From NCBI GenBank assembly GCA_029834535.1, contig JAQMWT010000313.1, positions 1-52,597 on the forward strand: a DNA stretch of 52,597 bases. The letters are read 5' to 3'. A program made the position numbers and the translations under genes. Numbering within the stretch: position 1 is the first letter of the stretch; each line of letters starts with the position of its first letter. Positions 892 through 52,597 of the stretch are shown in pieces. The notes beneath the pieces are model-generated. The model was not told the origin of the DNA. It saw only the letters and a list, made by a program, of their open reading frames with translations, and searched no databases. Source of the DNA: Chrysophaeum taylorii. Its lineage: Eukaryota; Sar; Pelagophyceae; Pelagomonadales; Pelagomonadaceae.

Positions 892-1916
892 GTCGATTAT
901 AGGGGACGGCCAAGCGCCAGCCTAACCGTCCGGGCGCCGCCAGGGACTCGGCGGTCGAGAGACGTAGGGGCCGTTGGCGTTTCTGTAAGCGTCTTGGCGC
1001 TCCCGAAAGCGGGTGATTAGATCAAGTGACTTGTATTTCTGCTCATGAACCCCCCGTCCCCACACGCTCCTCCCCCCTCTTAGCAGTCGACGTTTACCCC
1101 CCGCCCCCCCCCTCTTGGCAGTCGACTTCAAAAAAAACACTACAAGTGTAGTGGTTTTCTCAGACACCCGCCCCTCTTGGCCGGGCCAGAGGCCTCAACA
1201 ACCCTATATCCCAACCCGAACCACGGGTGGAACCGCCGCGCGCTCGATCTCAGCGTAACACTCAGGCCATCACGAAAATCGGACAATCAAAATGAGGGTA
1301 ATAGCAAGAAGACAGCAAGAAAGCAATACAAATGCTGGGTACACTGGGTTCAGTGGAAGCGCAGGTGAGGGTGTCAAGATGACACCCCCCCCCATAATTG
1401 TAAGGTCAGTACCAGGGCAACAATCATGGTAAGTCAGGTGGCAGGCAAGCAAGTGGGGGGAATGGGCGTTACTGCCACACAAGTATAACCATAAACCCAA
1501 CCCAACCTGCGCCCGCCCATTTTTTTTTTTTAAAGGGGGAAATCGGTTGATTTGGACAGGAGTTTCGTTCGGGCCTCCGACGAGGTCCTCTTGGGCTTTC
1601 CGCGAAGGTACAAGTGTGCCCGTATGACTTATATACACTAGGCCTAAGGTTGGCGACCGTAAGACGAGTCCAATTTCGGCGCCCTACGTGCCACTAGCGG
1701 TCGGAAGCGACTCAAGTCGGACCGCAGAGCTGCCCCGATACGCGAGGGGACTGTTCCTTGTCTTCTCGCCACGCTTTTTGTGTGCCGAGGTCATGACGAA
1801 GGTTATCAATATAGCTAGTCAGCGACGTTATCTCCCAGAGTCACCGCGAATTGAAGTGACGCGTCGATCGCGCGATGGGAGGAGTGTTTGCGCTTGAGAC
1901 GCGCAGCCTCTCGTTG
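892..1916. other. Non-coding left part of transposon region
   Basis: No convincing gene. It holds two units of the TTAGCAGTCGAC repeat (1078-1096 and 1113-1128) within C-rich tracts, and a T11 tract near 1520. Short open frames here lack recognisable motifs. Confidence 0.5.
1078..1128 (+). repeat. TTAGCAGTCGAC repeat units (two)
   Basis: Units TCTTAGCAGTCGACGTTTA and TCTTGGCAGTCGACTT. Three more units occur at 26111-26130, 26177-26199 and 26329-26348, each preceded by a C-rich CACACGC/CCCCTC stretch. Confidence 0.6.
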
Positions 1917-4900
1917 TCACTCGATTTTGGCGTGTTCAAACTCGGCGGCGCCCCCGTCATCGGAGCGGTAGACGAGTTTGTACTCACGGGCGACGCGAGA
2001 GAACCGCATGAGCCGGAGAGGCGGAAGGTTTTTGGGGCCAATGATGTCGAAGACGCGCTCACGTTGTCGGTGCGCCATCTCACTTTCTGTTCTGGTGTTA
2101 TGTCGGCGGTAGTGCCGCTTTGACTGGCCCCAGCCATACTCAACGCCATCGCTGGCAAGTTCTGGGTGGCATTTCGGCGACGAGAGTAGGATGTGGCCAC
2201 GGTTAAGGACGAGCTGTTGGAGGAAGCTGAACTCGTTCTTGAAGTCCGGGCAATTCCCGAGGATCTCCTTGGTTGAGGTCCCCGGAACGACGTCGCCGTA
2301 CTTGTCGAGCTGGCCGCGGAGCGAGTAATACGACAGCGGCTTCTCGGGATCAAACCAACCGCGCTCGAAGATGACTTGGTCGATGCCCTTCGCTTTGCCG
2401 ACGTAGGCCTCGGGCTTCCAGTCGGGGTGCTTGAATGGCGGCGGATCATCCGGCTGGAATATCATGTGCTGGTCTTTGCCAGGCTCGAGCTTGATGTTCC
2501 ATGACTGGACCACCTTCTGCCGCTTGCCCTTGCCGCTGCCGACCTTGACTTCGACGATGGCCGGATGGGGCCCGATGCAGCCCGCACCGAGTTTCGTCGA
2601 GGTTCGGAGGAGGCGCTGCGTCTTGCCGCCGACACCGGCGGACATATTGTTGACATTGAGGCCGTCGGGTTTGAACTTGTCGTGTCTCGACGAGTGGTCA
2701 ACCTCAATTAGGAACTGGTGACGAGGGAACCAAATCTCCATGACATCGAGGACGTCTTCGACCTGAAGAAGAAAATAGTCCGTGTCCTAGATGCCTTGGT
2801 GCTGCCTGCCAATCTTGAGCGTCTGGAGAGCCGGAGACTGGAACCACTTGGCGCCGTCGCCGCTCTCAAAGAGGAAGACCTTTCCAAAGGGCTGCTTGAG
2901 TGTCGGATCGATCGTGAGGTCGACCACGTCGTCTTCCTCCTCCTCCGCTTCGTCGTAAACGCTGGGATCCGGCACGTTGGTCGATACGGAAGCTTTGTCA
3001 TGCTTGTCACCTGAGTTGCAAAGGTTCCTCACAGCACATTCCAATCAAACATTGGACGCTGGGCTACTAACGCTTCGCCTTCTTTGCTTCCGCCCGCGCA
3101 GCCTCGCGGGTGGTTGCGCACTCTGAAAGCCTGGCGCGTACGGCTCGCGCGCTCTCCTCGGAGGCGTAACAGAGTGTGCTCGAGGTTCGACATCGATTGG
3201 CATCGTCCAAAAACCCACTCGGGGATGGGGATGCCGAAGTCGAACGGCGAGCCGACGAACGCGGACACCATAAGGCCCAGACCGTCGGCCTTTGACCGAA
3301 GAGGTTGGTAGCCCTCGATGGTCCATGTGTCCGTGGGCATGCAAAATGCCTTGTACGTCGCCTCGTCCTGGCCCAAGTGGATCAACGGGAGCACGTCCTT
3401 GGGGAACCGCACGCTCAGGTTGCCACCCATGGGAAAGCCGCCGACCGTGTCCATGGCGTGGTGATTGAAGGGTGACGACGGGTCATTGATGCGCCAGGCG
3501 TCGAAGGCCTCGCAGTCGTCCACGTGGAACTCGACCATTTTGGCGCCATCGCTGGAGCGCTCATACGAGAAGCCCTCCGGAAGATGAGGGTAAGACTCGT
3601 GCAAGGCGCTGGCTTCTTCCATGAAGAGCTGGATCCACTTGTATATCCGTGCCTCTTACAAGCAGAAGAAGTCGTTGAGATACTTGGCGCGATGCTCTCG
3701 GACGTCGGGCCGCTCGTGCGCATCCACGTAATAGCACTTTCTGTAGGTAACGTACTTGCAACCGACCTTTTCGTGGACTATGAGCTTGTGGACTTGCGAG
3801 TGCGACGGGAGCTGATTGGGGATCTTGTACTTGCGTTTCTCCTCGAGGCTGATCTGCGGCAGGATTTTTTTTCGAGGCGATGTACCCCCCGCGTCGAGGA
3901 GACGGTGACGACAGTAAGGTTCTTCTTGAGCCAGGTCTTCAACTTGCGCAGCAGGTCCTCATTGTGCACCACGTAGAGAATCCACGATTCCCGTTCGTAT
4001 GAGCCGCGGTGGTCCTTAGTAGAAAGTACCCGTCGTTGCGCTGGAAGTCGCCGGACCACATTCGCAGCGTCAAGGCAGAGACTTTGGGGTAAGGCGACAT
4101 CTTCACCGCCTTATTGGCCAGGAACTTGACGTCAGCCCCGCCTTCGACGACGGAGAAGTGTTCAGTATCCACCAATTGGAGGTAACGGTACCGGAGCTGG
4201 CTTTGCATGCGGACGCGGTTGAGGTGGTGGTCGGTGAACGTGGCGTTGACCTCCTCCCGGACGCCTTCGCCGTCAACGTCGCTCGCCGAGTGCAGGATAA
4301 GCTCGATCTCCTTGTTCGCGTCGATTTTCTCGCTTAATCGACTCATCATGTCGCGCCGCCAAGCCGCTGAAGTCTCCAAGCGAAAGTCCCCTGCCTCTTG
4401 GCGGGTAGCTTCTTCCTCTTCGGTGTCGTGTTGTTGGATCTCCCGATTGTCTTGTCGGTTGCGAGAAAAGCGCAAGCGCTTGCGCCGCTTTAAGCAACTC
4501 TGAATGATGCGAGCCCACTCGTCAGCCTTCTCATACTCGGCTGTCTTCGCCAGAGCCTCCGCCTTGCGCTTTGAATTTGTAGTCGGCTGAGACAGCGAAT
4601 TGCCAAAATGCCGACCATTTGCTTTCGAACTCCGACTGGTGCGGTTCGAGGGGGTTTCCTTGGAGGCGAGGTAGCGTCGGGATCGGCATCATCGTCATCG
4701 ACATCGTCTTTAGCGTCGCCTTCTTCGGCACCCTTGCTTTCGGTGTCGGCAAAGTTGTACGATCGCGGCTCACGCGTCTCGCGAATCGTTCGAGGTTAGC
4801 GACAGCATCGCTCAGCGTCGAGAAATTACCGATTTTCAAAATCCTCTTCACCCCTTTGCCTATGTAGCTCTCCCAGACATCCAGGTGGACGTAGAACATG

Positions 4901-5028
4901 CCGCGACGCTCCTCTCGGCTCGAATCTGTTGGGTACCGACCGATTCCAGGCACGGGATCACCATGTTCAGGGGTGTAAAACCCGTGGAGCCGTGTTCGCG
5001 TGAAGCGCGCTTCGTCCTTGGAAGCCAT
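1917..5028 (-). pseudogene. DDE-type transposase, broken by several frameshifts
   Basis: Conserved blocks of one long protein occur in order on the minus strand but in changing frames. They are: an N-terminal part from 5028; a helix-turn-helix-like/RxSWxL segment (4475-3800); YYVDAHERPDV (about 3700); LGQDEATYKAF, TWTIEGYQPL, DGLGLMVSAFVGS (3380-3250); VDHSSRHDKFKPDGLN (about 2700); GIDQVIFERGWFDP (about 2370); and SPKCHPELASDGVEYGWGQSK (about 2150). These match a transposase-like family scattered through algal and fungal genomes. In that family the Asp of (F)DHSSGHD and the Glu of CHPEL..GxEY fit a DDE/D catalytic fold (inference). At least four frame changes, at about 4500, 3950, 3620 and 2750, make it non-functional as read. 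The N-terminal segment WESYIGKGVKRILKIGNFST has some resemblance to an AP2-type DNA-binding domain, which is weak evidence. Confidence 0.75.
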
Positions 5029-5176
5029 CAACAGTTACACGAGTGTCCAGCACCACTTCCAGAACATGCGCAGCTGACCTGTTATCGCGCTCGGTGGCTC
5101 TTCGACGAGCGCGAGGCGAAAATCACGAAACACAGCAAACCATAGCCCTTTGATTTTATTCCTAACCCTTCTTTTT

Positions 5177-5200
5177 TTGCGTCAACGTCCTTCCTTCCAC
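5177..5200 (-). repeat. Right 24-bp inverted repeat (candidate TIR)
   Basis: Exact reverse complement of 868-891; lies 149 bp upstream of the transposase start. Confidence 0.6.
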
Positions 5201-5374
5201 TCACCGCATACACAGGGTGAAAGTAGTATGCCCGAGGGTAAGTAATATACAACATTGTAGGGACGAGAAATTAATCGCGGTGGGGTTGCCGAGCGGCCTG
5301 TGCTCAACACCAGTGAATAGATTGACTTGGGATTTTTTCCGAGCGTCCGTGGCCAGTTTTCCAAGGTAAAGGCA
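5201..5374. other. Intergenic
   Basis: No gene supported. A minus-strand frame of 78 codons (5418-5182) has no recognisable motif. Confidence 0.4.
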
Positions 5375-6467
5375 ATGCCCTTGTCGAGGTTCCGTGGGCA
5401 GGTGATGTCATCGCTCATATGTTTCCTGCGCTACTCCGCGAGTGATTTCGGTGTTGCAGGAACGCCCGTTTCGCGCGAATGACGTGTGGCGCGGGACGCT
5501 TACGTCGTGCCATCAAAATCAGTATCACTTACGGCGGAACTACCGGTATTTTCCGGTTGATCTGTCGATCGATCACGTCGACCTGGCGACCGGGGCCATC
5601 ACGGCAACGTTTGTGACTCACCTGGACCACTCGTTCTATGAACTCAAGGGAACGTACGAAGAAGACACGCGACGCCTGTTTCTCGAGGCGGTTCGCGGGA
5701 AACTCGCAAAGTCGTGGGAGCCTTGCGACGCCGAGGCCTGGGTCTCCCCCGACTTTTCGACGCTTAGCGGCGTCTCGGTGCGTCGAGGAACGAGGTCCGG
5801 TTAACGCGCGCCGCAGCTCTGCGAGGCACACGGGAAGTGTGACGCCGGGGGCGGCGAGTTCACGTTGCGCCAGGACAAGACGCAGTTCATCGTCGAAGGC
5901 GCCGGCGATTTAAGCGTACGGAGAACCGAGAAACTGTCGTTCGTTCGCGCGTTCCTCACGCCAGCAGCGTAGGTGCACGGAATGTACGTCAGCAAAGGAA
6001 GCTTCGAGTCGGGCGACGCGGCGCGCCCCGACGCGATAAACGCCCATCGCGTGTACGACGGCGCCCCGGTCTACATGCAAAGCTGCGACCGACGCGACGA
6101 CGATTGCGAGGACAAATTCGCGATCGTCCACGTCGTAGTCGGCCAGTATGGATACTGGCATATCCAGCGCGCTTCGACGATAGACGGGCCCTCGGGGGCC
6201 GCCGACATTCGATACTCCGTATGTTCCGAGGACGTGTACCCTCCCTCTGTTGGCTGGCGCCCCATCGATCCCGCTAGCGCTCCCCCGCCGCTCGTTCGGC
6301 CCGTCGTCTCGTCCATGTACGAGCTCCAGACCTACGACCGCATCAACAGCAAGGCCGCCGACGCCGACCGTACCCTCTCCATTGGCCTCCTCCTCGCGAT
6401 CGGTAGCCTCTTGTGGCTCCTTCTGGTGCCTTTCCTCCGCCGGCGATGCCGATTACTTTTTTTGTAG
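5375..6467 (+). CDS. Surface/secretory protein with C-terminal membrane anchor
   Basis: Best model joins 5375-5401, 5460-5777, 5817-5915 and 5973-6467 (312 aa). The introns are 58, 39 and 57 nt, all GT-AG and all phase 0; removing the last two eliminates the only in-frame stops. The interior has an imperfectly repeated motif style (VWRGTL...VDLATGAITATF; VHGMYVSKGSF...GAPVYMQSC...YGYWHI...PPSVGW) like the small beta-rich repeats common in secreted algal proteins. Residues near the end (TLSIGLLLAIGSLLWLLLVPFL, then RRRCR) form one membrane span with a basic cytosolic tail. The first exon is the least certain part: no signal peptide is seen, so a further 5' exon is possible. Function unknown. 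Confidence 0.6.
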
Positions 6468-41765: not shown

Positions 41766-42059
41766 ATGTCCACAAAGCCAACTGCGCACGACGACAATGC
41801 TACGATCGCTGAAATGGAGGCACTGAAGAAAATGATGACCCACTTCGAACAGGTCACGAGACCCGCAGAGCCAGTCACGGGCGTGCCCAACACGGCCAGC
41901 GCCGAGATCGGGTGGATGCTGCTGACGGCAAGAAAAAGAACTCCCGGGTTTCGTCAATGGTGTAAGAGAGATCGCAAGTATTGTGATGTGACGCGCTATG
42001 CTGACGAATCGTGGCGCTTCGGCCGCAATCCATTTGCTGCAAAGCACGCGCTCGCTTGA
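41766..42059 (+). CDS. Small hypothetical protein
   Basis: 97 aa from an ATG at 41766 (MSTKPTAHDDNATIAEMEAL), helical N-terminal half, basic Trp-containing C-terminal half (GFRQWCKRDRKYC). No family recognised. The opposite strand is open over the same stretch, so coding status is doubtful. It could be a fragment of a mobile element. Confidence 0.25.
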   Translation: MSTKPTAHDDNATIAEMEALKKMMTHFEQVTRPAEPVTGVPNTASAEIGWMLLTARKRTPGFRQWCKRDRKYCDVTRYADESWRFGRNPFAAKHALA

Positions 42060-43033
42060 AGCTGGGTGATATGATCTATTCCACCGCATACATAAGACCA
42101 ACGACTTTTCTTCCTACTGTAGAATAATCTGAGACCTAGAATGGCGCTTTCTATGTCTTTACGGTGTGGCATCAAGAGGTAATTCGTGCGTGCTTTGTGC
42201 AGAGAAATCTGCTGCCTCTTACCCTTATCTGTCCGTTGAGAAAGTGATCTCTTCCTTACCCTTCTTCTTCCTTTCTACGCAGTCAATTAGTCCTCTGATT
42301 TGTGCTCAAGCTCATCATCATGGTCTAGCGCGTCCCGAGGTATGTAGCACTATATACTTAACCTTTCTCGTGTAGTTCTAGATACCGCCTGTCGTGTTCT
42401 GAGGATATAGAGAACCTACCTTTCATTCCCCGAATTAAAAACTTCCAGACGCTCATGATGAGACGGGATGGTTTCCCAGGTGACTTACCACTGCAAGCTA
42501 AATGCTCTGCAGGTTATGGGCCCAAGCGGGTCCCTGAGAAACCATGTGTAACGCGCGCACGTAACCTATGGGTTTTGGACTGTTGCCGCGCCAGTCCAGC
42601 CTCGCCACGCAAACACGCTTGTTTATACAACGCCATTACCATTGGGCTGTATATAGCATATTTTGCACACGCGATCGTGTAACCTTGTGTGCACCTGTTC
42701 ATAGTATCGTGCTGTCATGTTAATGTTGATGTGAGTGTAAGTTGGCTAACCTGTACTCTTGCACACATGTTGTGGAATATTTTTTGGGTACGTCCACTCG
42801 TACATTCCATGACAATGCACTTACCAAGCTCCTTGAGAGCACCAAAATAACCAGCTGCCATGACCCACTACGCTTAGCGGCACTACTCTGGACTCACAGC
42901 TTGCACAGTTGTCAAATAGACATTTTCCATCGATAACGTATGAGTGTACATAGACACCGATACACAGACCCCCTTAGAATGTCTAGACAGTGTCAACTGC
43001 GTGACTGAACCCACTCGTTCCCCGTCAACTGCT
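42060..43033. other. Leader / possible left LTR of the outer retroelement
   Basis: No gene. TATA-like TGTATATAGCATAT at about 42648 and CTATATACTT at about 42350 could belong to a promoter or LTR of the element whose gag starts at 43034. The right-hand LTR would lie beyond this window, so the boundary cannot be set. Confidence 0.35.
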
Positions 43034-43629
43034 ATGGCAGAACACGCAGCACGAGCCGCACCCAAGGCGATCACAGGTGCGGACATACTGAAGCTCGAAG
43101 CTCCTGTAGTTGAGTTTCTCAACGAAGGAAATCGATTTCAGCTTCAAACCCGCAAGGTATCCTTGCACATCGAACATATCAAACAATTATTACGGTCCAG
43201 TCACGCCGATGCCTTCCTCGAGTACGACTCGCACGAAGCATACACACTCGGTCATGCAAGGACTACGAGATCCTCCGGAATCAAATTCTCGATCGCGTTT
43301 TCGTGGAATGGAAGACCGATAGGGCTACTGATCTCCATTTAGCTGTTGATGAATTGCCCCCTGAGTATGAGGAATGGCACTTCACCAATGAAGCTTTCCC
43401 CAACTTAACTGACGCAGAAGTAGCTCAGCTAGCTACTTTCTGTTATAACAATGAAGTCAAGGCATTACGCCCTGAAATCAATGTTCGTTTCTTAGAAGAG
43501 GAACGAATCTTAAATCGCGCGCACCCGAAAGCATTAGCTTTTGACACCCGCGTTCGTGCCCCTGTTACCATGTTCTCGCTAACTGCTGCTGATTGGCACA
43601 CTTATCAGAACACGTATGCTACATTCTTG

Positions 43630-43723
43630 TGACGAATGGTATGAGGCGTTAGACTAGCGATAAGAGAAAGACGTAAGGATACTGGATACGTGGTGCAGGG
43701 GTAAGTGTCATAGCTTCTTCACA
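43630..43723 (-). repeat. 3' LTR of nested element (94 bp)
   Basis: TGACGAATGGTATGAGGCGT at the left end, CTTCTTCACA at the right end. A 4-nt ATAG insertion and two single-base indels distinguish it from the other LTR. Confidence 0.9.
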
Positions 43724-43806
43724 CAGGTGCTGGAAAAGAAGGAAAAGGAAAAAGTGGTAATTGAGGTCCTCACACAGGTGCTGGGAAAGAAGGAAAAAGA
43801 AGTAAG
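43724..43806 (+). repeat. Internal duplication next to 3' LTR
   Basis: CACAGGTGCTGGAAAAGAAG (43722 on) and CACAGGTGCTGGGAAAGAAG (about 43774 on) are near-identical purine-rich copies. On the element's coding strand this is pyrimidine-rich, so it is not a polypurine tract. Confidence 0.6.
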
Positions 43807-43911
43807 TGAGACGCTCACAGAGGAGAAGCTTTGAGGAAGACGTCACATTTGAGGAAGACGTCACAGAGGCATTGTGGCAAGAAAAAGAGACAACAGAGAT
43901 CAGGGCGAAGA

Positions 43912-45272
43912 TCACGAAGTGAGGTAACGAGCACGAAGCCGGAGGAAGGAAGGAGTTTCCGTACTGCGGGTGAAAATGTCGCTAAGATTGTTAAGGCGGG
44001 GTATGTGCTTGAGATCGATGATGTGGTTGCGATGGTACTCGGCGGTACTGTAAAAGCGAATGTCAATATGGCGGGTGCGCCGTGTGAGACATTGGAGACG
44101 AACTTGGGTGACGGTGGTGCTATTATCAACATATATTGGGACCGTGTGACGAGGGAGATCAAAGTCATCAAAAAGTTTGAGAAGCCAAGAGAGCTCAGCA
44201 GTAGCAGCGTAAAGAGCAAGCAATTCAGCTTCGAAAGAAGAACGAGCAAGTAAGTACTGCGAGCGGGAGCAGTAGGCGATCATAGAGCCAGCAGAGAAAA
44301 CAAAGAAACAGTTGTGGAGTGGTGGTCATCAGGGTCGTCGGCCCAGCTGGAGTCGGAATAACCACAGAGACGAAGGGTAGAATCGCGACCAAGAACAAGG
44401 GCAAGATCGTGAGAGCCATTGAGATAACGCAGAGTGTGGGATAAAGCGTGCCAAGCGTGCCAGTGGGGTTTACCAGGATTGTGGGGAAAACGCGCACACT
44501 GATTGACGGACCAAGTGATATCAGGGCGAGTCATGATGGAGATGAAGAGGACACAGCCAACAATACGGCGAAAGGGGACACGCGTAATGCGAAGACCAAC
44601 GTAAGAGGTGAGATCGAGTTCATTGACGTCAGTGAAAGCGCGGAAACGGAGGAAAAAGGCTTGGTAATGGCCAATGCAATGACGAGGGTGCGCCACAAGA
44701 AGATCATCAACGACTAAAACAAGACGGAGGACCACGGTAGAATTGAGGACGAGCTTGTAATGGCAAGTGTCACCAGATCCGCGGACGAAGCCACAATCAT
44801 TGAGAAGGAAGCGTTCCAAATAAAGCCACCAATTGCGACAAGCTTGTTTGCAACCATACCAAGAGCGACGGAGCTTGTAAACGATTTTGGAACCATCGGT
44901 GGGTTGGCGAGGAGCATAGCCTTCGGGTGGCCAGACATAGATGTCTTCGTCAATGGGAGCTTGAATAAAAGCGGAGCTGACATCCAACTTGTGCAAATCC
45001 CAGTCATGAACAGCGACAAAGGTCAGAAAGAAACGGATCGTGACGATGTTGGCAACCGGTGAGTAGGTGTCATGATAATCAATGCCGTGAACCTGGGTGT
45101 AACCGCGGACGACAAGGCGAGCCTTGTACGATTTGAAGCAGCCAGAGTCATACTTCTTGCGGAGGATCCACTTGAGGGTACAAATGTTGCCAGAAAACGT
45201 CGAAGGAAGGCGCATAACATCCCAGCAACCAAGCTGACCAAGAGAGCTGTATTCTTTAGCGATGGCTTGCAA
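43912..45272 (-). pseudogene. Copia reverse transcriptase and RNase H
   Basis: Starts on the minus strand near 45272. The copia RT blocks are clear: TLKWILRKKY, KARLVVRGYTQVHGIDYHDT, YSPVANIVTIRFFL, LHKLDVSSAFIQAPIDEDIY, SWYGCKQACRNWW. The active site is VLVVDDLLV, where YVDD would be usual. TRPDITWSVNQ and GYSDSSWADDPDDHHSTT lead into RNase H. A frameshift at about 44283 moves the rest into the next frame: SRSQYLLARSSFEAELLALY, VDNSTTV and TRHIDIRFYS, ending at 43912. RT copies the element RNA and RNase H degrades the template. The frameshift makes this copy defective. Confidence 0.88.
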
Positions 45273-45470
45273 CCAGCCAGGACGCTTAGGATTGGTCGGA
45301 TAGTCGTTTCGTCAAGGTCTGATACTGAGACATTTCTTCGGAAGCAGAGTAATAAACGTGTGCATGAGGATCAACAAGGGTGTTAGCTAAACAAAGGGGA
45401 AGGAAGACCTAATGAACTAACAAACGAAAGCTAACAGAAGAGACATACAAGGAGTTACAGGGGGAAAGAA
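45273..45470 (-). other. Upstream pol remnant of nested element
   Basis: Region between the RT and the tandem repeats. No continuous frame or integrase motif could be recognised. Confidence 0.4.
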
Positions 45471-45596
45471 GGCCCGTATCGACATCAGAATGGCCCGTAT
45501 CAACATCAGAATGGCCCGTATCAACATCAGAATGGCCCGTATCAACATCAGAATGGCCCGTATCAACATCAGAATGGCCCGTATCAACATTGTGAC
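45471..45596 (+). repeat. 21-bp tandem repeat, six units
   Basis: Unit GGCCCGTATCAACATCAGAA plus T, repeated about six times with one or two changes at the ends. On the minus strand it reads GHSDVDT repeats. It lies inside the nested copia element. Confidence 0.92.
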
Positions 45597-47714
45597 AGGA
45601 TGAAACAGAATGGCCCGTAAAAAAAGTTTGTTGGTTGGTCGACTTTGCGCGGTCGGCTCCGTTTGGCGCGACTTTGTTTTGCACTTTCTGTTGTTTTCTC
45701 TCTTTGGTGCTCTTTTGTACGTTTCTCTCGAGCTCGTAGAATGGTCGGTTCACGTGATGGGGTGATCAGTCCCAGTGAAACCGGCGCATTCTCATCAAAC
45801 ACAGGGGGCAAGGGGGCAACAGCGGAAGAACAGCGGACATTGGGGGAACAATAGACGAGAGCTTGGAAGCGTGATTCGAGAAAGTCAGAACAACGTTGAA
45901 GTTCCTTCGGTGGTTGACATTGCAGGAAATCGGGTAAGTGAAACTGTCAGCAAAATCGAGGTCTGAAGAACAATAGCGACAAAAGTGCCTGGGATGACGT
46001 GCGTTAGACGATTGTCGCAGCGGGGCAAAGATAGCGGGAACACAGGCTGGTATATATGATGGCAGTGTACCAGACGTCTGATGAGAACGTTGCCTTTGGG
46101 CAGATAGGCTGCATGGTGCATGGTGACCAGGTTATGACGATGGTTGGAGTCGACAGAAGCAAAAACAGGCGTAAGCAGGTTTGATACGAACGTGGGTGTT
46201 TGGTTGTTGTGGTGCGAGCAAGTTGCCATGGGCACGACCGCGTCCTGTACGCGAAAATGGAAGACCTCGGACGCGCCTGCGGTGTAAGGAACGAACACAG
46301 GTAGACCAGGCTGCTGTATGCCAGCCTGCTGTGACACATAAGAAAGTGGCCCGTTTTCGCATTCGGAAGAACGAAGTTGCCATATGGGCCAACGTTGGAG
46401 GACCAAGCGGCGAGCTTCGCTCGTCATACTCGAATAGGCTGCGGTAGAAGTTGGCGACAGTGGCAAAACAGTTGTGGCACGTAAGAACGTTGCAGATAGC
46501 TTGCAGATAGCGTCGCAGTGACACGTAAGAACATTGCAGATAGCGTCGCGGGTGCTGAGCACGGAATTCACGTCGATAGCAAAACCGAATTTTAAAGGTC
46601 AGAAAAGCGGTGAAAAAGCGATAGTGGGTGAAGGAGAACCACAAATCACACAGCAAAGAAGCGTTTGTCCAGGATCCCGAAGATAAGCGATCCAAGCACA
46701 TAGGAAGCACGAAAACTGCGCACGCGAAAAATTGACAGGCACAGCTTAGTTGTGGCAGGTGAAATGAGCGATGGAACGTGATTCGCTGGTTTTACCAAAA
46801 CCGACAAGCACAACGAGGAGTGGATCGACGAATAGCTGAAAATGTACAACGGGGAGTGGAGCAACGAATAGGCGAAATACAGAACGAGGAGGGGAGCAAC
46901 GACGAGGGGAAAAAGACAGAACGAGGAGAGGAGCAACGACGAGGGGGAAAAACAGAACGAGGGGTGGAGCAACGAATAGCGGAAAATAGAGAACGAGGCG
47001 CCTGTGCAATGGGAGCTAAAAACAAAAACGAGGGCTTCCGTGGGATGGGGCTGTTGATGTGCTTGCATCAGACATTCGGCGGTACACACGCTGACTTGGA
47101 ATTATCTCGAAAGTGCTGCGCTGTTGAGAAGAACGGCGATGGTGGGTAGGGCGTTGTCGTGGAATAGCTAAGAACTTTGAAACTTGCGGCAGTCCCCCTT
47201 AAAGTGATCCTTGCAGCCGCCAAAAGGACATCGGGTAGTGCGTCGGAATCGAGTAGAGCCAGGTTGTTGGGAAAGGGGAGCGTCTAGGGTAGGTCAGTTG
47301 GAAGAGTCTGAAGTCGTGGCTGACGACGCGGCGGATAGCGCGGCGGAAGTGGTTGTGCATGCCATCGAAATTGGTTGTTGTTGAACTTCTCTCGGGTAGA
47401 ACCACATTCATCGGTACGAAACGCAAGACGATAAAACAAAGCCAGTAAGGCTTGAAGCACGATGCACGTAGTCAAATGCGAGGACACACTCGAGGGTGCG
47501 TCGGATCAGGTACAATGCCGAGCAACTTGAACTCCGGTGATAGGTAAAATGCCGAGCAACTTGAACGCCGGTGATAGGTACAATGCTGAGCAACTTGTAT
47601 ACTCCGATGATGAACTTGCTGAGGAAGTTCACTACGCAATCCCCACGGCCCATGTAGACATCGGTAATGCGCTTGTAAAGTCGCGTGAAGTTCAAGTCGC
47701 GGTTGTCATGGATA
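45597..47714 (-). other. Degenerate interior of nested element
   Basis: Expected place of protease and integrase, but only broken frames are seen. One (about 46571-45885) has a weakly copia-protease-like stretch (HHAAYLPKGNVLIRRLVH). It includes the 46796-47005 repeat array. Confidence 0.4.
46796..47005 (+). repeat. Imperfect tandem array of 30-40 bp units
   Basis: Repeated ACGAGGAG/GGGAGTGGAGCAACGA with AATAGC/GGGGAAAA spacers, about six units; purine-rich on the plus strand. Confidence 0.7.
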
Positions 47715-47924
47715 TCAACGTTGTTGCTTGACGCGAAAGTCTTCTTCAGAGCAGCCAGAAGCGGAAATGCTAGTCCAAGTGTCAGTGGTCAAGATAATGC
47801 GATCACCGGTGGAAATGATCATGTTTTCCAGGCGCCGGGTCCATTGGTGAAAAAGATGTCGCTCACCACTGAAAGCATCGAGTTTTTGCGAAATCTTGGT
47901 ATCCTTAATTTCGATCGAGGACAT
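47715..47924 (-). pseudogene. Copia gag N-terminus
   Basis: From an ATG at 47924 the frame reads KLDAFSGERHLFHQWTRRLENMI, the pattern with which copia gag proteins commonly begin (K-x-F-G...W...LE). It is lost at 47715. It lies about 120 bp inside the 5' LTR, as expected. Confidence 0.5.
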
Positions 47925-48029
47925 GATAAACGATAACGAACCGAACACGTTGCAATGAACTGAAGCCGAGGAGGAGTCGCTGTTGTCCGTGAAGTCAAGC
48001 TCAGGGCGTTCGACCTGGACACCTGGAAC

Positions 48030-48042
48030 ACCTGGTACCATG
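48030..48042 (-). other. Primer-binding site of nested element
   Basis: On the minus strand, 2 nt after the 5' LTR: TGGTACCAGGTG. It begins with TGG, the complement of the CCA end of a tRNA; which tRNA is not determined. Confidence 0.65.
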
Positions 48043-48134
48043 TGACGAATGGTATGAGGCGTTAGACTAGCGATAAGAGAAAAGACGTAAGGATACTGGA
48101 TACGTGGTGCAGGGGTAAGGTGTCCTTCTTCACA
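48043..48134 (-). repeat. 5' LTR of nested element (92 bp)
   Basis: Matches 43630-43723 without base substitutions; flanked on the right by the ATTCTTG target duplication. Confidence 0.9.
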
Positions 48135-49113
48135 ATTCTTGTATACTTACTTCAATCTTGAAAGTGTTGGAAACCAGCACTTGCGGCCTGGCCGCCATCA
48201 ATGAGGTGTATAACAAAAGTTATTTACCCAACAAGGCTCGAGCCATTATGCTCCTTGCCTTTAGTCACTACGAGTCTGTTACGACTACTGATGTGTCCTA
48301 CCTGAAACAGCAGTTTTACTCTGTTGTTTATAACCTAACTGGTATGTCCATGTGTTTATTGAAGCTGTCCTAGCATTTAGGCAAATCTCTTACCAACTTA
48401 ACCAGGAAGAGACTGACCTTCAATTCGACTTCGGTACTCTTTCTAGAAAATTTTATGAAGAGATACATCGGCATTATGCCGATAATACCAGCAACAATCG
48501 TTACGATCGTGGTGGGGTAGATTGGTGTTATACTTATGAAAACCGATCTTCATCCCGGCCTGTGCCAGAGCTGAACGATTGTGTCACCCTACCAACCCTA
48601 GCTATATCTTAGAATACGCATTAGACTTATATATGTGGTATCAAATGGGTCGAACAAAAGACGCTTAGAACGCCCTGTCTCTTGGCAACCTGACGTTGAA
48701 GGATTGACACCACAACCAAAACCAAAATTACTACTGACAAACACGCTGGATCTATCAGACAAAAGTCTGACTCAAACTGCAAACGCACTTTGCGTCCATT
48801 ACTTCTTCTCAACCTGGAACATCCCCGCGTTTAATGCTAGACGCTTGCGTAACTCTAACGATGCACGCCAGCCTTTCTCTCGCAGCGACTTATCGTATTA
48901 TCGTTCTGGTGATTCTTATGTCACCAAGAAAACTGCTGGACAGTCCCATCACCGTCCAATTTACCCTCGCACTTTCGACAGGTCCTCTCGATCTAATATG
49001 AAATTATTGGACCGAACTAAGCACACCATAAACACACTGCAAGAGCAGTGTAGTGAACTTACGAAGCATGTGACAGATAATGATATCACGGCTCAGCTAC
49101 AACAGACATCACC

Positions 49114-50334
49114 ATGTTATTTGAGACTCTGTTGCAATCCGCCGATATCCTATCAGCCACATCTACTGAGGACAATGCTGACTTATTTCGTCTAAACGAA
49201 CAACTCATGTTCGCAGAAGACTTCATTTACGATGTAGACGTCCATCTATCCTCGACCGAAAAGTCGTTAAACTACGTGGAGCCACAACATCATACTGTTG
49301 CTACTGCTCCCACCCCAAAGGCAACTCCTCCTACTACAGATACCAAGAATGCCTCCTACACACAGGGTAACCCCTCTGATATAGTGCCTAACTTCTTTAC
49401 TGCTTCCGCCATCTCGGCGTTACCACCAGCGTTACTGTCCTCGTTATCTTCACAGGTCCAATCAGCCATAAACCAACCACAACAAGCCGAAACCACAAGG
49501 GATGTCGATAAGACCTCGCTATCATCATTTGATGAGAAGTACGGCATGGCTGATGAGGCTGACGAACCATCACCACCTGTTCAACCGGTTATCATTCCAA
49601 CTAATCTATTATTTCTGGATAACTTCTTCACTGCTAGTCTCTCCACTACTTGCACGCATTCGGAAAATGCACTTCTAACGAAATACATGAAGGTAAACAG
49701 TGACCCCCAACATTGTTCCTTTTTATATTTTGACTCTTGTGCTACCATATCGTTAATGTCCAGCTACGATTATGCGATTCCAAACCATATCCTTCCACTG
49801 GATCCCAAATACGCGCCGATCATTATACAAACTGCCACTGGACAACAACGTGCCTCCCATATGATGTTAACACGTAGCATAGTTGTCCCACTACCAGATC
49901 ATCCACAAATCGGTTACGTGAAGATTGACTTCGCTCTATGTCTAAAGCCAGTGCATAACCGACATCTCGCCATATTGAGCATGCTCGAGTGGAACCAGAC
50001 GAACTTGACCACTGTGTTCAGTGATCGATCTGAGCCAAAGCTCAGCGCTGTCACGAGCCGCATAGACAAAGATGTTCGTATTCCCATACATTACGTAACA
50101 TATAATTTGCCTGCTCTCCCCTGTCTCACCTACAACATCGCTCGCGACAAGCAACTTGAACTGCGCTCCCTCGCATTTCCGCTCAAGCGATACCACGAAA
50201 ACAGGGATCTACTGGCATATTATAACTATCTCCTCAAGAGAGTTTTACCAGATCGCCCGTGGATTCGCCCTTTGGTTCTTAATCTTCGGAAACAGAACAA
50301 GTTCGTCCAGCAAAACACTCCACCATTAACATGA
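49114..50334 (+). CDS. Retropepsin-like region of outer retroelement
   Basis: 406 codons in one frame, entered by a frame change from the gag at about 49110 and ending in TGA directly before the methyltransferase ATG. After a Pro/Thr-rich linker and a Ser/Gln-rich stretch comes CSFLYFDSCATISLMSSYDY, whose D-S-x-A-T (Asp at codon 207) resembles the catalytic D-(S/T)-G-A of retroviral-type aspartic proteases. It is followed by a beta-rich segment (APIIIQTATGQQ; RHLAILSMLEWNQ) with the flap/ILSM pattern of retroelement proteases. Gly is Cys in the motif, which may reduce activity. The last 100 residues are unassigned. Assignment rests on position plus the motif. Confidence 0.5.
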   Translation: MLFETLLQSADILSATSTEDNADLFRLNEQLMFAEDFIYDVDVHLSSTEKSLNYVEPQHHTVATAPTPKATPPTTDTKNASYTQGNPSDIVPNFFTASAISALPPALLSSLSSQVQSAINQPQQAETTRDVDKTSLSSFDEKYGMADEADEPSPPVQPVIIPTNLLFLDNFFTASLSTTCTHSENALLTKYMKVNSDPQHCSFLYFDSCATISLMSSYDYAIPNHILPLDPKYAPIIIQTATGQQRASHMMLTRSIVVPLPDHPQIGYVKIDFALCLKPVHNRHLAILSMLEWNQTNLTTVFSDRSEPKLSAVTSRIDKDVRIPIHYVTYNLPALPCLTYNIARDKQLELRSLAFPLKRYHENRDLLAYYNYLLKRVLPDRPWIRPLVLNLRKQNKFVQQNTPPLT

Positions 50335-52457
50335 ATGCTTTCTCGCCCAGTGTTTCTCTCACAAGAGCCCAATCTTCGCAAACCCCCTGTCATGTTACTT
50401 TGTTCTGGTTTGTCAACCCCAGCGTTCCTGTCTCAAGCCACTAATGACCTAGGCTTAAATATCAATGTAAAAGTTGTTGTTGAGTCTGATGATACGCTTG
50501 TGCGCATGTTACGCCACCGTTTTCCTACAGTATTATTATTTGAATCTTTGCCCGCCTTTATTAACCACCTTCACCTAATCTCACCAGAGGAAAGGCGCAA
50601 ATTTTATAGCGATATTATTGAGATAACTCCTCCTTGCACTAACAGGAATCTACTAAAGCAGCATAAGACCGAAGACTTACACCGCCTGCTCGACGACTCT
50701 CTGTTCGACAGTATGCTGTCTGTCATCAAACTTCTCCAACCCTTGGTACTACTGGCTGAGATGACACCACCCCACAAGTACTGTCATCAAGACCACATAA
50801 CTGTGGCCAATCTCATCCATGCCACACTCGATTACTGTGTTGATGTTGTAGACAGGTTCCCGACCTACCTATGTGGTGACTACCAATCTAGGGAAAGATG
50901 GATCTGCATCGCACGCAGGTATTCTACTGGGCCCATCAACATACTTTCATGGCCTATCCACCACCCACGCGCCTTCTTTAAGATCGTGGATGACATACAA
51001 GCCATTCCTAAACGACTTTGGCTATCCAAAGATATCGCCAAAAATTGGATCCGGGTGTTCCCCGATCCTCCATATGTCCCCGTTCCTAAAACTTTTGCAC
51101 CTTACTCTCGCACAGGTTCTGTTCAGCTTACTATGACTGACCTTGTAACACTCAATTTGTTATTTCTTCGCCTTCACTCACAACAGGCTCACGAGCAACG
51201 CACGCACTCAGTTCAATCCGAGTGTACTTATCATCAGCTGTGTTTCAAACGCTCCTCCATGGATCCACTGCCTCATGCAACTAATCCATTGCGTGTCAAG
51301 GCCTTTACTATCCTCTATAACGTGTTTGCCAGATTGCACACTAACTCACCCACTCCTGTGTCCTATTACATAACAGTTTTCGAAACTGACCAAACGTCAC
51401 ATAGGTTACTACTTACAACCTCATCAACATCACACAACACCTACTTCCTAACCGGCGGCCACCACACTGACGGCAACCTCACCATAGAAAACGCCGCCAC
51501 CAAATATCATGCTGCCATTGACGCGTTTGGAAGCACGTATACGTTTACTGCCTCCAACGTCCCCCGCGACAGAGACAGGTCTATGTGCTTGGAGCCGTTT
51601 GTGGGTTACTTGTGGATCATCCAAGCCCTTCCTCAAGTTGGCTCCGCTGCCGCCTATGGCACTGCCATACGAAAGCTCTTCTCCAGATGCTCTCTTGTGA
51701 TGCCTGGCTGCCTTACCTACAAGGCCACCGACAATTCTTTCGACTACAAGGATTCCCATTTTGCTCTGGAAGGTCACCACTTATCCCATAGTCGCTATAT
51801 AGGGTATCTTCGTGGAAGTGACCGCAAACTCGGCTCTAAAATCCACTCCATGCGTGCTCCACTGCCCACCGTCCGAGGATATGCAAACATTATCTTACTC
51901 GACCCTCGCAACGGGAAACTACGCTATCCCACTCGACCGGAGTTGATTCGTGCTAACAACCACACCAAACAACAGGAATCTTTCCTCTTGTCTCTTCGCC
52001 ACGACCTTTTTGCTGCGACATGCTCAGCAATGCTCTGCCTGCCGGTACGTACAGCACACAGGCAAGCACCTTTCGTCTGTTCGTTGATATGTTAAATCTT
52101 TATGTTGATCCTACCTTCCAACATCCTGCTGCCGTGATGAAGTCCTATGTATCCACCTTCATGACCTTTGATCCGGCATCCACCACGTGCAGCACAGATA
52201 CCTTCGGCATGCGCCTCATGACTTCTATCTCCAGCAATCGCTTGACCGAAATGTCGTTAAACTATATGTCTTCGTCGTACGAAGATACTCTCGCTACTTG
52301 TGATAATGAGGATGCACCTCCAAGTGACCCTGCTGCGCACCAGGATGACGACGCACCGCCTCCTCCTGCCTTGGACACCGAGCTCAAGTTCGATGTTCGG
52401 CGCAAACGTCATATCCCCGCTCATCCCGCCTCGAACCTTCGCACACGGATCTGCTGA
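50335..52457 (+). CDS. Cytosine-C5 DNA methyltransferase within a retroelement
   Basis: Open from 50335 to 52095; a one-base frame change near 52017 then continues to 52457. Motif I/SAM loop: VMLLCSGLST (codons 19-28). Motif II-like acidic residue: VVVESDD (47-53). Motif IV: DIIEITPPCTN with the catalytic Cys at codon 101 (TGC, 50635-50637). Motif VI: LVLLAEMTP with Glu142, replacing the usual ENV. Motif VIII: GDYQSRERWICIARR (181-195), the QxRxR signature. A 300-residue target-recognition region follows. Motif IX: LRYPTRPELIRANN (about 530). Motif X: MLSNALPAGT, read in the shifted frame (52020 on). The product would methylate C5 of cytosine in DNA using SAM. It is preceded in frame by TGA-ATG, so it may be made by reinitiation. 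The tail after motif X is acidic and Pro-rich. Confidence 0.82.
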
Positions 52458-52597
52458 ATACCTCAACGCCGTTCAAACGTGCTGGATCGCTTCACTGGGT
52501 GCACCACTGCCCCGACGACGTTGCAGCCAAGGCCCCCAACGCTGGCTCGCCCTGGCTTCTCTGCCCCCGATCTACCGTATCGCGACTTATGCACCGA
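52440..52597 (+). CDS. Continuation of outer retroelement coding sequence (partial)
   Basis: The methyltransferase frame stops at 52457, but an overlapping frame (FAHGSAEYLNAVQTCWIASL and on) is open to the right edge and composition is unchanged. This suggests another frameshift or a following ORF, possibly leading to integrase or RT outside the window. Confidence 0.4.

Follow-up and report, generated by a model that had tools for sequence, protein, structure and literature searches.

Retroelements that carry DNA cytosine methyltransferases (DNMTs) of their own have already been described among LINE, DIRS and Gypsy elements, in two eukaryotic lineages according to the available part of that account (de Mendoza 2018, PMC5890265). 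KnitGypsy-Dnmt3 of Klebsormidium nitens, like the element reported here, is an LTR retrotransposon with a C5-methyltransferase inside its Pol ORF and under purifying selection. However, as far as the consulted text describes it, it is a Gypsy element of a charophyte with an enzyme of Dnmt3 type, whereas the present one is a Copia element (RVT_2) of a fucoxanthin-type alga, whose enzyme can be placed as a C5-methyltransferase only (PMC5890265). SymbioDIRS-Dnmt3 and SymbioLINE-Dnmt of Symbiodinium are similar as high-copy, retroelement-borne DNMTs but belong to DIRS and LINE elements of a dinoflagellate, not to an LTR Copia element. In the sections consulted, CG methylation is reported for the enzyme of SymbioDIRS and methylation of cDNA is proposed (PMC5890265). 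Another text, in the passage available, places DNMT3s in 'LTR Copia and DIRS', citing de Mendoza 2018, which says Gypsy; the wording is either a slip or a published Copia case (PMC12344493).

A C5-methyltransferase in a Ty1/copia element is a variant beyond the published LINE, DIRS and Gypsy cases. For stramenopiles, no report of a Copia-borne C5-methyltransferase was noticed in the literature searched, which was mostly open-access, with preprints outside its scope, and in part available as excerpts. Tca2 and pCal are two names for one element. This Ty1/copia element of Candida shares with the present one an in-frame UGA between gag and pol, and differs in that no methyltransferase is mentioned for it in the text consulted (PMC2194720). 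The CoDi Copia elements of diatoms are likewise Ty1/copia elements of an alga and are targets of DNA methylation, but the consulted text mentions no methyltransferase borne by them (PMC9998398). A paper on the transposable elements of Ectocarpus, in the part available, describes Gypsy elements with Tudor and NADAR domains and a DNA transposon with a methyltransferase of N4C/N6A type, arrangements that differ from the present one.

The window analysed here, the whole stretch of 52,597 nucleotides from Chrysophaeum taylorii, ends within a copy of a Copia family that we call family A. Its layout is as follows.

48135..52597, + strand: family A Copia copy, without LTR and gag start and cut by the contig end; 94.5% identity to positions 1576-6060 of copy L033
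49084..50331, + strand: ORF covering the gag C-terminal part, a putative retropepsin included; the stop-to-stop gag frames of L032 and L033 are 831 and 960 aa long
49720..49761, + strand: stretch with FDSCAT, read by motif as the putative active site of the retropepsin; Asp codon at 49732-49734
50332..50334, + strand: in-frame UGA separating gag from pol
50335..52095, + strand: predicted C5-cytosine methyltransferase ORF of 586 aa at the start of Pol; homology via relatives and joint profiles

A sequence-only reading had described an ORF with the landmarks of a C5-methyltransferase, and the ORF is there, with Cys101 in TPPC and Glu142 in LAEMTPP as it stated. Its claim of a full set of landmarks in one ORF holds for motifs I, IV, VI, VIII and IX but not for motif X: the span then given, 50335-52457, is made up of two frames, one at 50335-52095 and the other at 51957-52457, and motif X lies in the second, so the window copy is frame-shifted before motif X while motif IX is still in the first frame. 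The same reading put the ORF directly after a gag-retropepsin region. The gag frame does end at the in-frame TGA, but the retropepsin is a motif reading; the active site of retropepsins usually reads D-S/T-G, and here it reads D-S-C. A Pfam search of gag gave nothing credible, its one unrelated match (E 0.088) being far below the cut-off. Comparison with a single relative, L033, reveals out-of-frame indels in the window copy: 15 fall in pol, every one of them at about 52.0-52.5 kb, and 10 fall in gag. The crowding of indels over 52000-52597, at the contig end, perhaps reflects an unpolished assembly and not decay. The integrase and reverse transcriptase of this copy are absent within the window, the contig ending before them.

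The element is AT-richer than the host genes, as had been noted, with a GC fraction of 0.47 against 0.60 in positions 1-41000. Along the window, GC drops from about 0.60 (1-41000) to 0.45-0.52 (42000-52597), which looks like a block of retroelement DNA adjoining host genes; those beside the block, judged by eye, include kinases and sulfatase-like and UBC-like genes, and PT-rich repeats are present in one host ORF. Such repeats and a GC near 0.60 tentatively point to a pelagophyte-like stramenopile. Another Copia remnant lies on the minus strand at 44283-45311 (RVT_2, E 3.5e-35) and is about 32-33% identical to the reverse transcriptases of families A and B. Regarding the host itself, light-harvesting proteins have 84 matches in the genome, and the nearest matches to the one tested were fucoxanthin chlorophyll a/c proteins (best E 7.8e-80), the top-matching entries presumably being diatom proteins. 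Silicon transporters are a mark of diatoms, and a search of the genome for them gave no match. On contigs C88 and C539 of the assembly (G000), light-harvesting genes that score equally stand in tandem rows.

Taken by itself, the window ORF matched nothing in Pfam, PF00145 included; its sole PDB match at E <= 1 was unrelated (E 0.62), and the PHROG annotation 'DNA methyltransferase' was reached at E 0.012. A search of 5.8 billion proteins supplied one homologue, the transcriptome protein P0001 (40% identity over 357 aa), and a search with profile A1 added P0002; no other outside relatives were found in the protein database. Both match the PHROG DNA methyltransferase (3e-8 for P0001, 4.6e-7 for P0002), and P0001 matches PF00145 at E 4.4e-4. 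A second family of the same genome, family B, for which the protein database held nothing at E <= 0.1, matches NCBIfam dcm at E 9.9e-9 (35.3 bits, under that model's cut-off of 100.65). The PF00145 check proposed in the sequence-only reading was thus negative for the window ORF and positive for family B, at 32.1 bits and above the cut-off of 22, with P0001 just under it at 20.2 bits. Families A and B align over 205 columns in hhalign with probability 94 and an E-value of 1.4e-7, which refers to a single comparison.

Joint profiles point the same way. Profile A1, whose 13 sequences come from the two families plus P0001, found 12 PDB sequences at E <= 1, every one a C5-methyltransferase (best 1.9e-6), and six of its 13 members match PF00145 at E <= 10. 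Profile A5, made of six full-length domains, matched 16 PDB entries, again all C5-methyltransferases and including DNMT2, at E 0.00019 to 0.49, most of them above 0.01. A profile of family A with P0001 and P0002 retrieved a single chain, again a C5-methyltransferase and no better than E 0.39. An AlphaFold model built from the window, P0001 and P0002 sequences is too poor to decide the fold (pLDDT 46, pTM 0.38), although it has alternating strands and helices; its fold neighbours mix DNMT2, DNMT1, DNMT3 and DNMT5 with dehydrogenases that rank above or level with them. Among viral contigs, 33 stretches fitted the motif pattern and none was a relative. The METHYLTRANSFERASE question for the window ORF is settled by its relatives, the window sequence alone being at the edge, and ORF 50335-52095 is best read as a divergent C5-cytosine methyltransferase whose membership rests on relatives and motifs. 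Because Pfam fails to recognise so divergent a sequence, surveys that rely on PF00145 alone would overlook the window enzyme.

The motifs in the window copy are placed as follows.

50395..50418, + strand: motif I, LLCSGLST, aligned with family B and P0001
50476..50493, + strand: motif II, VVESDD (Glu50), from the alignment with family B and P0001
50629..50640, + strand: motif IV, PPCT, with the predicted catalytic Cys101 (codon 50635-50637); Cys in 21 of 21 copies and in family B
50752..50772, + strand: motif VI, LAEMTPP, with Glu142 (codon 50758-50760) in 21 of 21 copies; ENV in family B
50884..50901, + strand: motif VIII, QSRERW, from the alignment and kept among copies
50938..51900, + strand: large region that alignment A5 places between motifs VIII and IX (about residues 202-522), putatively for target recognition
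51922..51945, + strand: putative motif IX, RYPTRPEL, also in L031 and L033; aligns with RYATLNEI of family B
52023..52046, + strand: putative motif X, LSNALPAG, in the second frame, also in L031 and L033; aligns with LANAVPHH of family B

The domain comprises about 560 residues: motifs I to VIII occupy the first 200, about 330 residues follow that probably form a large target-recognition region, and motifs IX and X close it, at residues 530 and 563 in L031 and L033. In these two copies motifs VIII, IX and X stand in canonical order (QSRER, RYPTRPEL, LSNALP) in alignment with family B, which has the same motif order with PCQ, ENV and LANAVP. Alignment and reading by eye suggest the assignments of motifs IX and X, since none of the PDB matches of profiles A1 and A5 reaches this part of either family. 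P100, C101 and E142 are invariant across the 13 aligned sequences. Motif IV usually reads PCQ; here it reads PCT or PCL, with PCQ in P0002 and family B.

The history of the domain was followed in 21 copies, namely the window and 20 of the 29 loci L002-L030, picked without a preset rule and compared without gaps; those left out are L007, L008, L010, L011, L017, L024, L025, L026 and L028, several of them partial or indel-shifted. Five of the 21 have a stop within the first 345 codons. Median Nei-Gojobori dN/dS is 0.09 over residues 19-200 (210 pairs), 0.20 over 201-345 (208 pairs) and 0.30 over 346-400 (207 pairs). Between L031 and L033 it is 0.06 in the core, 0.14 over residues 201-575 and 0.04 in the integrase, at dS 0.36-0.50, and between L031 and the window 0.06 and 0.17. 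The reverse transcriptases of L031 and L033 give 0.16 at dS 0.11, a value that is not comparable with the other regions, and since this dS departs from the 0.36-0.50 found elsewhere, L033 looks mosaic. The much closer resemblance of the two copies in reverse transcriptase than in methyltransferase and integrase (dS 0.40-0.50) points to subfamilies having recombined. In comparisons inside one subfamily (L032, L034), dN/dS is 0.76 and 0.28 in the core and 0.56 and 0.25 in the integrase, as for dead copies drifting. Four uninterrupted copies of family B give 0.09-0.12 (6 pairs); four pairs with L040 (0.52-0.85) were not used because L040 is interrupted by a stop and loses register. The methyltransferase domain is under purifying selection between subfamilies.

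These data bear on whether the enzyme is active. The domain might have lost its catalytic activity and be retained in the integrase complex as a module for nucleic-acid binding or targeting; its distance from known enzymes would speak for this, as would the residues beside the catalytic ones in motifs IV and VI, which depart from PCQ and ENV. We regard this as improbable: C101, E142, Q184, R186 and R188 are kept in 21 of 21 copies, with G25 and T98 each altered in one, core dN/dS stands at 0.06-0.09, and the separate family B does have PCQ and ENV.

The genome places the domain in a retroelement, as the sequence-only reading had supposed; the Ty1/copia type of the element, the conserved UGA in front of the ORF and the two further lineages described below go beyond that reading. 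Searching the 70.8-Mb assembly with the window ORF gave at least 78 matches (75 of 1588 candidates were scored, with a few rows representing fragments of the same copy), and the integrase and reverse transcriptase that were to be sought downstream are present in copy L031, where one natural frame of 1691 aa runs from methyltransferase through integrase (rve, SH3) to RVT_2. The integrase domains are under their cut-offs (rve 784-866, E 0.0076; SH3 968-1007, E 0.00056), and the HHCC and D,D..E motif patterns match; RVT_2 lies at 1431-1651 (E 7.7e-42) in the methyltransferase frame, and a frame that appears RNase H-like by eye follows it. In the C42 copy the LTRs are about 316 bp long and begin at 56710 and 45170; they have the form TGCAG...CTGCA and agree at 92.7% across 317 columns. 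The flanks of this copy, GATAA and GATAG, form an imperfect 5-bp target duplication, and the element is about 11.9 kb long. For the C127 copy, no matching 3' LTR was seen in the stretch examined. A repeat in L032 considered as the LTRs was rejected, the LTR being about 316 bp. On these sequence features the element is a Ty1/copia LTR retrotransposon, and its predicted domains are shown in the order gag(-putative protease), UGA, methyltransferase, integrase, reverse transcriptase. There is next to no probability that the ORF is instead a DNA methyltransferase gene of the host that happens to adjoin debris of retroelements. In the window itself no integrase or reverse transcriptase follows, owing to the contig end, but the uninterrupted methyltransferase-integrase-reverse transcriptase frame of L031 and the many genome matches led us to reject a host gene, and the window copy aligns with L033 from gag through methyltransferase.

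Family A is accompanied by further methyltransferase-bearing elements, the examples of which lie on the following contigs of the same assembly (G000).

L046 (C582), L051 (C96), L052 (C681) and L057 (C96): second Copia lineage, family B, with a predicted C5-methyltransferase of PCQ/ENV type
L055 (C235) and L056 (C38): Gypsy-like elements with a third predicted type of C5-methyltransferase; RVT_1 in L055, L056 assigned by eye from its downstream frame

In L057, a Pol frame of 1952 aa holds the family B methyltransferase, rve and RVT_2, and the gag and pol frames differ and overlap. A PF00145 search of the genome returned 124 rows, 56 of them family-B-like by the range of the profile matched; all 18 of these that were examined match the family B domain. 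Apart from these and from two apparently single-copy genes taken up below, 66 PF00145 rows remain, of which 63 match the first part of the profile only; the two examples examined, L055 and L056, are the Gypsy-like elements listed above. With 121 of 654 candidates scored, protein searches gave at least 131 matches for family B, and with 111 of 934 scored at least 121 for the Gypsy type of L056; in both cases some rows are pieces, so that neither figure is a copy number. The Gypsy-lineage domain, read by eye, has FAGAGG as motif I, SPPC, RTRL, RPLTL and GSMVPP, without a plain ENV. Contigs C57 and C260 were considered as host DNMTs and rejected, as both fall in the Gypsy family. Two genes with PF00145, L035 (C634) and L036 (C621), are apparently single-copy, although intron-split genes may escape the search; L035 resembles Dnmt2 by eye, and in L036 the domain is preceded by a long acidic stretch. 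In this 70.8-Mb genome, C5-methyltransferase domains appear to be carried by at least three lineages of LTR elements, two Copia and one Gypsy. Their matches run to hundreds, compared with two DNMT candidates of the host, both apparently single-copy. A bolder proposal, which we hold tentatively and consider rather doubtful, is that element-borne methyltransferases are the main source of new cytosine methylation here, that self-marking arose repeatedly, and that the Copia enzymes with a large recognition domain form a distinct class.

How Pol would be expressed depends on the gag-pol junction, where the codon in 29 other copies is TGA in 25 and TGG in two, with one gap and one unreadable. The codon after TGA is CTA in 12 of the 25 copies, ATG in nine, ATA in two, and CTG and CCA in one each. 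According to the text available, a CUA codon following UGA sufficed to make readthrough efficient in a reporter assay, and termination at UGA CUA (G) is described there as weak (PMC4207609). RNA structure 3' of the UGA, computed for three copies, in no case beats shuffled sequences (z -0.31, 0.22 and -0.04). For the copies of CTA type, this context makes UGA readthrough likely. Pol might instead be reached by re-initiation at the ATG after the UGA, or by some other bypass, which would suit the nine copies with ATG directly after UGA, and in the part of the Tca2 report consulted the flanks of the UGA between gag and pol gave no readthrough in S. cerevisiae (PMC2194720). This route seems the less probable one, although by no means a far-fetched one, as 16 of the 25 copies have no ATG at that place.

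Readthrough fits into a joint reading that we consider probable: a Ty1/copia element carries a methyltransferase in Pol, expresses it by UGA readthrough, packages it in the particle and methylates its cDNA, so that copies are born marked. Ribosomes would read through the UGA at a low rate, and the methyltransferase would be made in Pol amounts; it would enter the particle along with reverse transcriptase and integrase, and cytosines of the new cDNA could then be methylated before or at integration. The most likely benefit would be that the cDNA is not treated as foreign by the host, or that fast dampening of new copies lessens their harm to the host. We infer methylation of the element's cDNA, and the decay of existing copies was examined for traces of methylation. 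CpG observed/expected is 0.92-0.93 in three stretches of family A, against 1.26-1.46 in seven host stretches. C/T differences over 88 pairs are 0.066 in CpG, 0.066 in CCH, 0.070 in CTH, 0.048 in CHG and 0.047 in CAH; because the CpG rate is no higher than that of CCH or CTH, heavy CpG methylation of the copies is not supported.

An active C5-methyltransferase could also be directed at RNA, either the genomic RNA of the element or its primer, and not at cDNA. DNMT2 chains (4h0n, 1g55, 9hgm) are among the matches of profile A5, and DNMT2 ranks third to fourth in Foldseek, where the model searched was the poor one. For LINE elements, de Mendoza 2018 propose RNA methylation, and the LINE enzyme tested left yeast DNA unmethylated, as the consulted sections state (PMC5890265). 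We nevertheless think an RNA target unlikely, given that the best profile matches are entries named cytosine-specific or modification methylases and that the very large recognition region would be more typical of DNA target choice.

A methyltransferase marking its own element's cDNA remains the preferred reading. The Copia case, accompanied in the same genome by another Copia lineage and one of Gypsy type, suggests that the capture or retention of these enzymes is recurrent and useful to the elements, which may themselves write chemical marks onto DNA. The finding makes a question testable: do such elements methylate their own cDNA, and does the mark serve as a shield or as a brake?
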